In this document: positions 12,416 to 16,378 of the stretch, in pieces
Position numbering within the stretch: position 1 is the stretch's first letter
Layout of the letters: each line of letters starts with the position of its first letter
NCBI GenBank assembly: GCA_002773355.1
Contig: PFBL01000011.1
Coordinates: 1-43,789, forward strand
Source of the DNA: Candidatus Kaiserbacteria bacterium CG10_big_fil_rev_8_21_14_0_10_56_12
GTDB lineage: Bacteria; Patescibacteriota; Minisyncoccia; Phycocordibacterales; Phycocordibacteraceae
DNA length: 43,789 nt
Reading direction: 5' to 3'
Made by a program: the position numbers and the translations under genes
Notes under the pieces: model-generated
Told to the model about the DNA's origin: nothing
The model's database searches: none
Seen by the model: only the letters and a program-made list of their open reading frames with translations

Positions 12416-12870
12416 CGCTCGCACACAAGAAAGCCCTCGTCTTTGTGCTTGCTGGGGTTACGTATTTGGCTGGCCAGTACTTTCGCGGAGTCTGGTTTCT
12501 TCATCTTTCAATAGGCACTTGCAAGAACAGTGTTGATGATTGGGGCGTGTTTTGCAATTCGCCTTACGTGGGGACTCTCGGTTGGCCCCTTATCGACTTG
12601 GGTGCGATGATGTTGGTCGTGGCCATCGTGCTCCTCTTAGCAAATGCAGAAACGTTTCATAGGTGGCTGAAGTTCACTCTCTATTACGTCCCCATCGTCG
12701 TCTTGCTTGATCTACTGATCTACCCGATGAGCTCTGGCATTGGGTTTATTATGAGTGGCCCGCCGCTGGGCTATGAAAAGGGCATCTATCCCTTCGGGAA
12801 GCTGTTCGTACTTATCACGATTGGGATCGTGCTATGGGGATGGATTCGTGCGCACCGCGCGAAGGCGTGA
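12412..12870 (+). CDS. Four-TM membrane protein, possibly SPase II (LspA)-like in shape
   Basis: 152 aa. The start overlaps the stop of the hydrolase gene in ATGA, so the two were probably translated together. Four hydrophobic segments can be seen, at about residues 8-28, 58-80, 86-108 and 128-147. Length and four-helix layout recall lipoprotein signal peptidase, and the family also has an aspartate pair, but the family motifs are not clear here, so I do not assign that function. It is an integral membrane protein of unknown role. Confidence 0.6.
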   Translation: MTLAHKKALVFVLAGVTYLAGQYFRGVWFLHLSIGTCKNSVDDWGVFCNSPYVGTLGWPLIDLGAMMLVVAIVLLLANAETFHRWLKFTLYYVPIVVLLDLLIYPMSSGIGFIMSGPPLGYEKGIYPFGKLFVLITIGIVLWGWIRAHRAKA

Positions 12871-12910
12871 TACTCCGGTCGCATCGATTTTTATGTGCTA
12901 GGATAGTCCT

Positions 12911-12928
12911 ACAACTTGAGCAAGTTGT
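12911..12928 (+). other. Hairpin at the 5' edge of the metK leader
   Basis: ACAACTT-GAGC-AAGTTGT forms a 7-bp perfect hairpin whose right arm overlaps the 5' strand of riboswitch helix P1. It may compete with P1 or protect the 5' end of the RNA. A possible extended -10 (TG-C-TAGGAT, about 12896-12904) lies just upstream. Confidence 0.4.
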
Positions 12929-13026
12929 ATCAAGAGGCAGTGAGAGAATTGGCTTTATGACCTGCCGGCAGCACTGAGGAACTTCCTCGTAAGTGTGCCA
13001 ACTCCAACCCGCTCGGGAAAGATACG
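12924..13026 (+). promoter_or_regulatory. SAM-I riboswitch controlling metK
   Basis: The leader shows the SAM-I aptamer in order: helix P1 GTATC (12927-12931) with GATAC (13021-13025); the conserved ATCAAGAG; P2 GCAG with CTGC around TTGGC...ATGA; GGCAGC; helix P3 GCACT...AGTGT capped by GAGGAA-C-TTCCTC; the conserved TGCCAACTCC; a short P4 CCCG/CGGG; and the closing GAAAGAT. SAM-I RNAs bind S-adenosylmethionine and turn off downstream genes when SAM is high. It lies 70 bases before metK, the SAM synthase gene, with a hairpin and T-rich tract between them. Confidence 0.9.
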
Positions 13027-13033
13027 CCGGTAC

Positions 13034-13061
13034 GCCGCTCACGCGGCACACGTCTTTTCTT
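13034..13061 (+). terminator. Riboswitch terminator-like hairpin before metK
   Basis: GCCGC-TCAC-GCGGC (13034-13047) is followed by a T-rich tract (CTTTTCTTATTATT from 13054). Directly after the SAM-I aptamer this is the expected expression platform. The stem is short, so the exact switch structure is uncertain. Confidence 0.55.
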
Positions 13062-13095
13062 ATTATTCACGTGAGTACGTTATTGATGACATATC

Positions 13096-14034
13096 ATGAT
13101 TAGAACTGCAGAATTTGTGAGCCCGGGCCACCCGGATAAGCGTTGTGACTTTATTGCTGACAGCTTACTCGACGCGTATCTCGCAGGCGATCCACAGAGT
13201 CGTGTCGCCGTCGAGATTATGGGCGGCCACAACCTCATCACGATTAATGGCGAGGTTACCTCCTCGGCGAAGCCGGACATTGTCGGTATTGTGCGGGGGA
13301 TCGTCGGTGCCGAATACAAGGTGATTGAGAACATTGCACAGCAAAGTAGGGAGATTGGTCGCGGCGTCGACACCGGAGGCGCCGGCGATCAGGGCATCAT
13401 GAAGGGCTATGCGACCAGCGAGACCGAGACCCTCATGCCACTCGAATATGAGCTCGCGCGCACCCTGTGCCAGAAGATTTATGAGGTGTATCCGTTTGAC
13501 GGCAAGACACAGGTAACGGTCGAAGATGGCGTGGTAACCGTGGCTATCGCCAGCTTCCAGAACAGCAAAAATGTGGACCTCTTGCCACTCGTCAAGAAGG
13601 AGATCGACGCAAAGGAGTACCTGCTCAACGTCGCGGGAGAGTGGACGCAGGGTGGATTCGATGCCGACACTGGCCTCTCGGGTCGTAAGCTCATCGTGGA
13701 TAACTATGGCCCGGAGATCGCCATTGGCGGAGGCTCGTTCTCGGGCAAGGATTACACCAAGGTAGACCGCTCGGGTGCCTACATGTGCCGGCGCAGTGCG
13801 GTCGATCTGCTCCGCGCGCGCAAGGCGAAGACCGTGCATACCAAACTTGCCTATGCGATTGGCAAACCGGAGCCTGTCATGGCCGTTGCAGTTATCGACG
13901 GTGTCGAAGAGCAGATCACCGGATACGACCTGACACCGCTCGGCATCAAAAAGGCCCTCAAGCTCGACACGGTCAAATTCGCTGATACCTGCACGTGGGG
14001 GCACTTCGGTCGCGGGTTTACCTGGGACGTATAG
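13096..14034 (+). CDS. metK: S-adenosylmethionine synthase
   Basis: 312 aa, clearly shorter than the usual 380-400. It makes SAM from methionine and ATP in the cytoplasm. Signatures: GHPDK at 11-15, the ATP-binding GAGDQG at 95-100, DADTGLSGRK near 189-198, and GGGSFSGKDYTKVDRSGAYM near 211-230. The GAGDQG and GGGSFSGKD motifs are the two MetK PROSITE-type signatures. The missing length seems to come from loops in the N-terminal and central parts, a reduced form seen in small genomes. It is governed by the SAM-I riboswitch at 12924-13026. Confidence 0.96.
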   Translation: MIRTAEFVSPGHPDKRCDFIADSLLDAYLAGDPQSRVAVEIMGGHNLITINGEVTSSAKPDIVGIVRGIVGAEYKVIENIAQQSREIGRGVDTGGAGDQGIMKGYATSETETLMPLEYELARTLCQKIYEVYPFDGKTQVTVEDGVVTVAIASFQNSKNVDLLPLVKKEIDAKEYLLNVAGEWTQGGFDADTGLSGRKLIVDNYGPEIAIGGGSFSGKDYTKVDRSGAYMCRRSAVDLLRARKAKTVHTKLAYAIGKPEPVMAVAVIDGVEEQITGYDLTPLGIKKALKLDTVKFADTCTWGHFGRGFTWDV

Positions 14035-14055
14035 ACCGTGCGGCCACAGCGTGCG

Positions 14056-14064
14056 TGTTAGAAT
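14056..14064 (+). promoter_or_regulatory. Extended -10 element of the metalloprotease gene
   Basis: TG-T-TAGAAT, seven bases before the ATG at 14072. It supports this start over the in-frame GTG at 14051. Confidence 0.55.
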
Positions 14065-14071
14065 TGGGTGC

Positions 14072-16378
14072 ATGAGAGCGCACGTGAGCAGGGCGGTCAC
14101 GGTAGCGGGTCTGCTGTGTCTCGTCCTTCTTACTCCACAATCGACGCAGGCCGCGACAGTGACCACGCCGCTCATCTTTTGGGGAGGTCTTGAGGCACTT
14201 TTCGCGCCATTCGAGCAACTTGCCTCAAGTTATGGGCTCGCTGCCGTCGCATCGAGCGAGGGACCAAGCGCCCCGCAGAATCTTCGCCCAAGCGGCAAGG
14301 TGTATTACTCCGTCAATTTCTCTTATGGCGCGCCAGCCGACGCTGGTGCGGGGATCAAGGAATATCATGTCTATCGTGATGGCGTACTCCTGAGCACCGG
14401 GTGGAAAACGTTGAATGCCAACGACACGCGGTGGCCTGAGGCTGGCGCAACCTACACCTACACGGTCACCGCCGTCGACTGGGCGGGGCATGAGTCGCCG
14501 CCATCAAACCCCATTACGATTGCAGTGCCACAACGCCCATCGCTCAAATCGAGCTACAACATCCCCGTGCTCCTTGTTGACTTTCAGGATTGGAAGGACA
14601 AGAACCGACCGTTCACCAAAGACTATGTCGAGCAGATGATGTACACCCGTGAGCGCTCAGTGAACACATTCATCCAAGACAACACCTACGGCAAGTCGAA
14701 GATCACTGGGGAGGTCTATGGATGGTTTACGGTGCCAGGCAATCTCGCGGACTATGCAGGACGCTTTCTCAACGGCGGCCTCGGCTATGACATCAATTAT
14801 CCAAAGCTGATGAAGGATCTCGTGAGTGTTGCGGACGCGGACGTCAACTTCTCTGGTCGAGATGCAGTTGTTGTACTCCTGTACGGAGTCGGCACGGCTG
14901 GGGAGAGTGGTTACATCGCCCAGACACAGGAGGGCACTGTCTCGTTTGTCCCTATCTCGGCGCACCGTGGTGATAAGCTCACGGTGCCCGACATTGTGCA
15001 CGAACTTGGCCATAAGCTGTGGCATCTAGGGCACGCGGGGAGCTCTCGTTGCTCGGGTGGACTCTATTTTAGCACCGACGTGCGCGATCCGCAGGCGGAC
15101 GGTTGTTGGACGGGTCGCTACGAAGACACCACGGATGTTATGGGGTCCTATTTGAGAGATCTGAGTAGCTATCACCGGGAGAAGATGGGGGTACTCTCGA
15201 GTGGGCAGGTTGCCGTGGCCAACTCCTCTGGCACCTATACGCTTGATGTGCTTGAAACGCCTTCGAGCGGGATCAAGGAGCTGCGTATGCCCGTACCGCA
15301 CGGAGGCTTCCTCTTCGCCGAATATCGTCGGCCAGTTGGATTCGATGGGCTACCCCAGAGCGACGTGGGCGGGAGCGGGAGCGGGACGGTAGCACCGGGC
15401 GTGTACGTGAGAATGCAGCCCAGTTATTTCTCCTATGATATGGATACGCTGATCCCGACACGTAGCATTGGTTCTCCTGTCGTGTTTACACCAGGGCACG
15501 CATTCCACGATGCGGCCCGCGGGATAACGCTGGAGGTTACGTCCATGGATGCGCAATACGCAACCATTAAGGTTACGCGCGAGAGCACGGCGCGCGATGC
15601 ACCCGCAGACCCGCCACCGGCAGAACCGCCGCAACCAGATGGGCCATCTCCAGATGTAACACCTCCGCCGCCAGCGCCCGAGTCGCCACCGGCCGATACA
15701 GAACCACCGCCTGATGAACCTCCACCGTCATCACCGAGAGCGGACGGCACGGCCGTCACGCCGCCCCCGACGGTCACCAACGATGCGGCCGGCGAGCCAC
15801 CGACCACGACGGACACCGGGTCTGCCACCACCGGCGCGCGCTCAGGTGCTGGTAGCTCTGGTGACGTTACGCCGACGCCACAACCAAGGGCGCGCTCAAG
15901 CGCGCGCAATGATCTCTTCATAGAGGAGCTTTCGTTGTCATCGGGGAAGGCAGCTACGCCAGTTGCCGCACAGAGCCCCCTGGGGTTCAGTCTCTTGGTA
16001 CGTAACGCTGGGTCCAATACCGCCACGACGTTCTCTGTGCGATTGTGGGTTGATGAACAAAGCGATGGGTCGTGGGAGCACGTCGTAGAGATACCCTCGC
16101 AGGCGTTGTTAAAACCAGGAGCGCCGCAACGATTGTTTACGGGGTGGGTTGTGCCTCAGGCGGCACCGGGCACCTACGCGGCCGAGGCCTGTGTAGCTAT
16201 CGTGAATGGGACGGCGCTCACAGACATGGCGAGTCACTGTCGTGTGCTCAACCTCACGGTCGCCTCGGCGCCCGTAGCGCCACCGACGCTCGGCTCTACG
16301 GTGCTGAACGCCATCAAGGACAGCACGTACAACACATATCACGCGATACTCAATTTCTTCGGGAATCGCGGACAGTAA
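14072..16378 (+). CDS. Secreted multidomain metalloprotease (M6-like) with FnIII and CARDB-like domains
   Basis: 768 aa. A signal peptide (about residues 1-28, ending TQAA) leads to a fibronectin-III-like domain (about 65-150, with DGVLLSTGW and YTYTVTAVDWAGHES). The peptidase region follows, with the zinc motif HELGHKLWHLGH near residues 310-321, matching HExxHxxxxxGH with E as catalytic base. A very Pro/Thr-rich linker (about 510-605) joins a C-terminal beta domain (about 615-740) like CARDB, a surface-adhesion fold. The order is that of immune-inhibitor-A/M6-type secreted proteases. For a host-dependent ultrasmall cell it may act on host or environmental proteins; that role is inferred. 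No sorting motif is seen. Confidence 0.82.
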   Translation: MRAHVSRAVTVAGLLCLVLLTPQSTQAATVTTPLIFWGGLEALFAPFEQLASSYGLAAVASSEGPSAPQNLRPSGKVYYSVNFSYGAPADAGAGIKEYHVYRDGVLLSTGWKTLNANDTRWPEAGATYTYTVTAVDWAGHESPPSNPITIAVPQRPSLKSSYNIPVLLVDFQDWKDKNRPFTKDYVEQMMYTRERSVNTFIQDNTYGKSKITGEVYGWFTVPGNLADYAGRFLNGGLGYDINYPKLMKDLVSVADADVNFSGRDAVVVLLYGVGTAGESGYIAQTQEGTVSFVPISAHRGDKLTVPDIVHELGHKLWHLGHAGSSRCSGGLYFSTDVRDPQADGCWTGRYEDTTDVMGSYLRDLSSYHREKMGVLSSGQVAVANSSGTYTLDVLETPSSGIKELRMPVPHGGFLFAEYRRPVGFDGLPQSDVGGSGSGTVAPGVYVRMQPSYFSYDMDTLIPTRSIGSPVVFTPGHAFHDAARGITLEVTSMDAQYATIKVTRESTARDAPADPPPAEPPQPDGPSPDVTPPPPAPESPPADTEPPPDEPPPSSPRADGTAVTPPPTVTNDAAGEPPTTTDTGSATTGARSGAGSSGDVTPTPQPRARSSARNDLFIEELSLSSGKAATPVAAQSPLGFSLLVRNAGSNTATTFSVRLWVDEQSDGSWEHVVEIPSQALLKPGAPQRLFTGWVVPQAAPGTYAAEACVAIVNGTALTDMASHCRVLNLTVASAPVAPPTLGSTVLNAIKDSTYNTYHAILNFFGNRGQ

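Follow-up and report, generated by a model that had tools for sequence, protein, structure and literature searches.

SAM-I aptamers upstream of metK without a recognizable terminator in a clade of Patescibacteria

Three related patescibacterial genomes carry a SAM-I riboswitch aptamer in front of metK with no recognizable terminator behind it, which is best read as a single loss of the terminator with retention of the aptamer. They would exemplify a riboswitch that has kept its sensor and lost its output part, in a setting where masking of a Shine-Dalgarno (SD) sequence appears to be unavailable, and they allow a test of how small the output of a SAM-I aptamer can be. One of the three is Candidatus Kaiserbacteria bacterium CG10_big_fil_rev_8_21_14_0_10_56_12, of which a stretch of 43,789 nucleotides was analysed (the window); the other two are Kaiserbacteria RIFCSPLOWO2_02_FULL_54_13 (L002) and Nomurabacteria LH-02apr19-231 (L003). 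They form a clade in the MetK tree with supports of 91 and 92. The features of the window are as follows.

12899–12904, + strand: probable −10 element TAGGAT, read from the sequence, with TG two bases ahead and without a convincing −35
12910–12929, + strand: 5′ hairpin UACAACUU-GAGC-AAGUUGUA at the predicted transcript start, excluding full P1; ACAAC/GUUGU common to L002 and L003
12911–12915, + strand: ACAAC, the start of the leader motif ACAAYYNAA (65/122 leaders), the full motif not being kept in the window
12924–13028, + strand: SAM-I aptamer (RF00162), 57.2 bits, covariation over 49 sequences
12924–12931, + strand: P1 5′ strand GUUGUAUC, firm pairs GUAUC/GAUAC (RF00162 match, covariation)
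12949–12952, + strand: pseudoknot L2 strand UUGG, partner CCAA at 13004–13007 (covariation, 49 sequences)
13004–13007, + strand: pseudoknot J3/4 strand CCAA (covariation, 49 sequences)
13021–13028, + strand: P1 3′ strand GAUACGCC (RF00162 match, covariation)
13034–13047, + strand: 5-bp GC hairpin, first read as a terminator, which it is not (5-nt spacer, absent in L002 and L003)
13053–13061, + strand: UCUUUUCUU, probable remnant of an antiterminator strand; 9 bp possible with GGGAAAGAU, not beyond chance
13086–13088, + strand: second ATG, 10 nt upstream of the metK ATG and out of frame, also in L002 and L003
13096–14034, + strand: metK, methionine adenosyltransferase (MAT), 312 aa (Pfam PF00438, PF02772, PF02773)

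The identity of the element as a SAM-I riboswitch is virtually certain. The first-pass annotation had read the conserved SAM-I elements in order, and the core blocks, the GGGAAAGAU segment and the UUGG/CCAA pseudoknot are all found. The Rfam SAM models, which it named as a check, give a significant match: over the whole window RF00162 matched 12924–13028 on the forward strand with 57.2 bits against a gathering score of 44.4 (E = 9.5e-11). Another Rfam riboswitch in the window is ruled out, RF00162 being the sole Rfam family at gathering score there. Laxer settings over 12600–13300 returned the same single match and no further SAM-I at up to E = 1. A second SAM-I elsewhere in the 632,001-base genome is likewise ruled out, with the window copy the sole match of the genome search.

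Helices P1 to P4 and the L2-J3/4 pseudoknot are all present in the window aptamer. For covariation, 49 patescibacterial aptamers were aligned, and the known SAM-I pairs were scored against 500 shuffles. Of the two covariance models built, R1 had a poor structure and was set aside, and R2 was used. In P1 to P3, 92.4% of cells are paired, with two-sided changes at 18 of 26 pairs, above all 500 shuffles, and pairing falls to 30–42% when the partners are shifted by one to three columns. Pairing in the pseudoknot reaches 98.5% of cells, and all four of its pairs show two-sided compensatory changes. Since a covariance model cannot contain a pseudoknot, this is evidence independent of the retrieval of the sequences. 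P4 is weaker, 72.9% paired and without two-sided change. The window element is like SAM-I (S-box) RF00162 in aptamer architecture, pseudoknot, conserved core and metK target. It differs in that its clade has neither a terminator nor a beyond-chance antiterminator, and in the extra 5′ hairpin that competes with P1. The aptamer is thus a plain member of SAM-I, and not a new kind.

Between the end of the aptamer and metK lie 67 nt in the window, 39 nt in L002 and 14 nt in L003. In this position SAM-I is likely to act as a sensor of SAM. The 312-aa MetK is by its sequence a complete enzyme. It contains the GHPDK, GAGDQG, GGGSFSGKD and KVDRS motifs, which we take to have a role in MAT catalysis, and it aligns with solved PDB MAT structures at E = 2.5e-48. 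The match to TIGR01034 has E = 2.6e-67 and 227 bits, under the cut-off of 309 for that model. The first-pass annotation had described the target as a reduced MetK. A 312-aa MetK does lie downstream, but its length is not unusual, given that 63 of 108 SAM-I/metK leaders are of this short type. Its relatives place the organism with uncultured Nomurabacteria and Kaiserbacteria of the Patescibacteria. Three MetK types (short, mid and long) lie on separate branches within the genus in a 132-row tree; all three have SAM-I in front, an arrangement suggesting that the riboswitch moves, or is exchanged, along with its gene. At the L022, L023 and L025 loci, which reach about 3 kb or less per side, the flanking genes of the window had no match. 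Comparison of the leader with phages by BLAST gave a single short match of 57 bases, inside the coding region. The out-of-frame ATG is found at that place in four of 108 leaders (L001, L002, L003 and L090). A 775-aa open reading frame (14051–16378) with weak similarity to an M6 metalloprotease domain lies 16 nt past metK and could share its transcript.

The first-pass annotation had expected riboswitches to be sparse in such small genomes, and this proves not to be so. SAM-I is carried by 21 of 105 genomes of the family, by 84 of 379 sampled from the phylum and by 74 of 397 sampled from the order. In the family, metK is found in 23 of the 105 genomes, and 21 of these 23 have SAM-I, 19 by an Rfam SAM-I match and two more (L102 and L114) by the model built here. 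In the remaining two, metK starts about 90 nt from the contig end (L118) or is 5′-truncated (L121). SAM-I without metK was seen in G058, where the contig stops at that point, and in G087. Of the 80 related metK loci from named genomes, 54 are preceded by the aptamer, and the 26 without it include several that have no 5′ flank. SAM-I is therefore predicted to be a normal regulator of metK in the phylum Patescibacteria. A literature search found no paper on a SAM riboswitch in Patescibacteria; as far as the passages retrieved go, riboswitches in the candidate phyla radiation are mentioned just in passing, in one paper.

Terminators were counted in 122 distinct leaders out of 133 loci, which were retrieved by aptamer or metK search and are not a random sample. 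A terminator-like hairpin was taken to be one of −4.5 kcal/mol or lower (a threshold of our choosing) followed by a T-rich tail, and start codons were assigned by script. The count leaves aside 80 further loci, and some weaker SAM-I matches from the phylum and order samples lie outside the leader set. Such a hairpin is present in 104 of the 122. With a laxer criterion only nine of the 122 are without any, and L002 has just a spurious hairpin of −2.9. The window, L002 and L003 have none (0/3), compared with 57 of 60 other leaders with a short MetK (Fisher 5e-4), although the three absences are close to one event because the genomes are related. The suggestion in the first-pass annotation that the switching device may differ from the standard one is borne out by this contrast. 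The sister of the clade, L025 (support 87 in the MetK tree), retains a terminator, UUCCUG...CAGGAA followed by a T-run.

The same annotation had seen a terminator with a stem of only 5 bp in the window. We reject this, as five bases (ACACG) separate the 13034–13047 stem from the T-rich stretch, L002 and L003 have none like it, and a terminator scan of 12880–13100 listed nothing.

Antiterminator-like pairing is common in the leaders as a whole. The GGAAAGAU segment pairs downstream better than 95% of shuffles (p ≤ 0.05) in 51 of the 91 leaders tested. Terminator-type SAM-I leaders of related Nomurabacteria and Kaiserbacteria (L025, L026, L087 and others) have the same aptamer, a short MetK and a similar promoter-to-aptamer layout. 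Unlike the window clade, L025, L026 and L087 retain the terminator hairpin and T-tract, and their GGAAAGAU:AUCUUUCC pairing is significant (p = 0.01, 0/1000 and 0/1000 shuffles respectively), unlike that of the window. Pairing of a putative antiterminator to the aptamer 3′ strand gave p = 0.166 for the window, 0.082 for L002 and 0.372 for L003, not beyond chance. The 9-bp GGGAAAGAU:UCUUUU helix was dropped as support, being at chance level in all three. The UCUUUUCUU of the window is probably a leftover of an antiterminator strand. Of the features of a transcription-attenuation platform the window thus has neither an intrinsic terminator in the stretch from P1 to metK nor an antiterminator beyond chance.

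Transcription might still be attenuated, by a cryptic or Rho-dependent route. SAM would close P1, UCUUUUCUU would be freed from GGGAAAGAU, and transcription would stop in the leader or in early metK. In its favor, termination is the mode of the sister lineage and of most relatives, and a 9-bp GGGAAAGAU:UCUUUUC pairing is possible in the window and L002 and is seen in the free-state fold of L002. Against this stand the chance-level pairing in all three leaders, the absence of a hairpin with T-tract from the window and L003 (with only the spurious one in L002), and the gap of just 14 nt between aptamer and AUG in L003. We therefore regard attenuation as unlikely.

The aptamer itself has changed little within the clade. 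Between 41 and 45 of its first 48 nt, and 30 to 33 of a 33-nt stretch at its 3′ side, are identical among the window, L002 and L003, and the changes cluster in apical P3. Synonymous third positions of metK are only 45–55% identical among the three. Because the core is near-identical while about half of the synonymous metK sites have changed, the aptamer is probably still in use and under strong selection in this clade. That bears on a further possibility, that the expression platform is decaying, such that the aptamer folds and binds SAM while regulation of metK is weak or lost. Decay would fit the terminator and antiterminator pairing that are gone or weak, the varying length of the stretch between aptamer and start, and a predicted accessibility of the start site that does not change (below). 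Yet such conservation would be unexpected for a useless RNA, and we consider decay improbable.

The clade leaders have a hairpin at their 5′ end. In the window its arms are UACAACUU (12910–12917) and AAGUUGUA (12922–12929), forming 8 bp (7 bp with a transcript start at 12911), and the 3′ arm overlaps six bases of the P1 5′ strand. The stretch 12911–12931 folds with −5.3 kcal/mol (z = −2.8), and 4 of 200 shuffles were as good. The extra 7-bp hairpin over the P1 5′ strand noticed in the first-pass annotation is therefore real. ACAAC...GUUGU surrounds the start of P1 in all three genomes, with the intervening 8, 10 and 8 nt diverged. The hairpins beat nearly all shuffles, with z = −2.8, −3.2 and −3.0 for the window, L002 and L003 on stretches whose boundaries were picked to bracket the hairpin; a freer hairpin search gave p = 0.25 for L003. 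The P1 5′ strand GUUGUAUC is identical in all three, and its 3′ partners vary (GAUACGCC, GAUACCUA and GAUACCAG). As the partners differ, the conserved GUU is explained by the hairpin and not by P1. The core of the hairpin is invariant among the three genomes and so shows no covariation. As a general feature, a local hairpin between the ACAA motif and P1 was rejected, since p ≤ 0.05 was reached in four of 122 leaders, which is chance level.

The 5′ arm contains the start of a motif that is widespread in these leaders. ACAAYYNAA lies directly upstream of P1 in 65 of 122 SAM-I leaders (e.g. L016, L019 and L088), compared with 0.56% of shuffles. A −10-like hexamer ends exactly 6 nt ahead of the ACAA motif in 40 of the 65 motif-bearing relatives, as it does in the window. 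Eight of 13 matches to a stricter form in 11 genomes fall in SAM-I leaders, which argues that the motif is part of the riboswitch leader rather than a promoter motif of general use. It is complementary over 8–10 nt to a stretch 3′ of the aptamer in L072, L085, L088, L090, L093, L099, L145 and L177. Complementarity of at least 8 nt between the motif and downstream sequence occurs in eight of the 65, where about 1.8 are expected.

Imposing the aptamer in computed folds removes the 5′ hairpin, at a cost of 4.6–6.7 kcal/mol that could be covered by the binding of SAM. In the start region, accessibility (three clade leaders, 30-nt tail) was 0.42, 0.50 and 0.53 in the free state and 0.44, 0.49 and 0.49 with the aptamer forced. 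The first-pass annotation had proposed folding the leader with and without P1. With and without the imposed aptamer, hairpin and P1 come out as mutually exclusive, and the start region is about equally open both ways. The barely changed accessibility of the start codon gives no positive support for translational control. Folding of the whole leader was set aside as proof of a switch (z = −0.73, accessibility unchanged).

The direction of control is likely to be SAM-dependent repression of metK. How it might be exerted is less certain, and the reading that we favor, tentatively, is an off-switch based on the exclusion between P1 and the 5′ hairpin, in which the closed aptamer hinders the initiation of translation. 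Without SAM the start of the transcript would fold as the 5′ hairpin (ACAACUU/AAGUUGU) and P1 would be open. With SAM, P1 would form and the hairpin would be forced open. The closed aptamer may then stand as a rigid obstacle ahead of a start codon whose reading does not involve SD pairing, lowering the initiation of translation, so that metK would be turned down when SAM is plentiful. Since folding gave no positive support, the translational route is our best guess. The aptamer model of L003 ends 14 nt short of the AUG, in favor of this route; the 67 nt separating AUG and aptamer in the window count against it.

The same exclusion could act instead on the stability of the mRNA. The 5′-terminal hairpin would shield the 5′ end, and P1 formation driven by SAM would open it and lead to decay. 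The predicted transcript begins with this hairpin, 6 nt past the −10 element, and the hairpin is excluded once P1 is forced; its lack of covariation is a point against, and we think this explanation very unlikely. A broader proposal, which we hold to be doubtful, is that in a lineage without an anti-SD the terminator was dropped and a 5′-end hairpin swaps with P1, whereby SAM sets either access of the 30S subunit or mRNA decay with no downstream platform.

Translational control in the off-switch we favor would have to operate without SD pairing. The 16S rRNA 3′ end in the genome of the window is GUGGAACAUAUCCAAU, where GGAUCACCUCC is expected. A 16S search over 18 genomes gave no match in eight. 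The CCUCC core is absent from ten of 11 readable 3′ ends (G000, G089, G057, G033, G235, G357, G559, G101, G098 and G277), and G386, of a different class, retains it (GGATCACCTCC). The ten are the genome of the window and nine others of its order or class. The literature passages on anti-SD or Shine-Dalgarno sequences in Patescibacteria that were found hold no mention of this loss. An SD-like 4-mer is present at −18 to −4 in only three of 35 window reading frames (start codons uncurated), and there is none ahead of the window metK. With a 16S lacking CCUCC and so few SD-like reading frames, an SD-masking platform in the window leader is unlikely. The 3′ ends concerned are at L261 (G000:C9:56086-56713, − strand), L265–L273 and L275, and an example of the missing core is UGGAACAUAUCC in place of UGGAUCACCUCC. 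The 16S gene of the window's genome is split over two contigs, and the part at L262 (G000:C17:65-1113, − strand) has 1,049 bases for model positions 39–400, so probably carries an insertion.

SAM-I riboswitches that act on translation have been described elsewhere. Passages of Barrick and Breaker (2007; PMC2258182) report some SAM-I in which the 3′ side of P1 contains the ribosome binding site, and count as direct translation control those with a start codon no more than 15 nt from the aptamer. The leaders of our clade resemble that arrangement, as there described, in having no terminator, and L003 with its 14 nt falls within the 15-nt limit. The window (67 nt) and L002 (39 nt) lie outside it, and the window differs in having no binding site built into P1 and a lineage 16S without an anti-SD. 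The SAM-I of Xanthomonas campestris, according to passages of PMC7270179, acts mainly on translation; a hairpin of its expression platform masks the SD together with the AUG, and it also senses uncharged initiator tRNA. It shares the SAM-I aptamer with the window, which has no SD to mask.

The clade also suggests a wider rule, in which patescibacterial lineages without an anti-SD would use terminators and those with one would use SD masking. In the f33-like group, from elsewhere in the phylum, an SD-like motif precedes metK in seven of nine leaders; its 16S had no match in the search over 18 genomes. L129, L131, L140, L141, L145 and L148, of families f33 and f73, have the look of SD masking, with a pyrimidine-rich strand facing AAAGGAG or similar before the ATG, and contrast with the terminator type of the window's order. 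In L135, L136, L138, L142, L205 and tentatively L204 the metK start codon lies within the P1 3′ strand (GAUAUG or similar), whereby the aptamer would cover the ribosome binding site; this is the direct-control arrangement of the passages in PMC2258182. AAGGA stands just ahead of this start in L136, L138 and L142.
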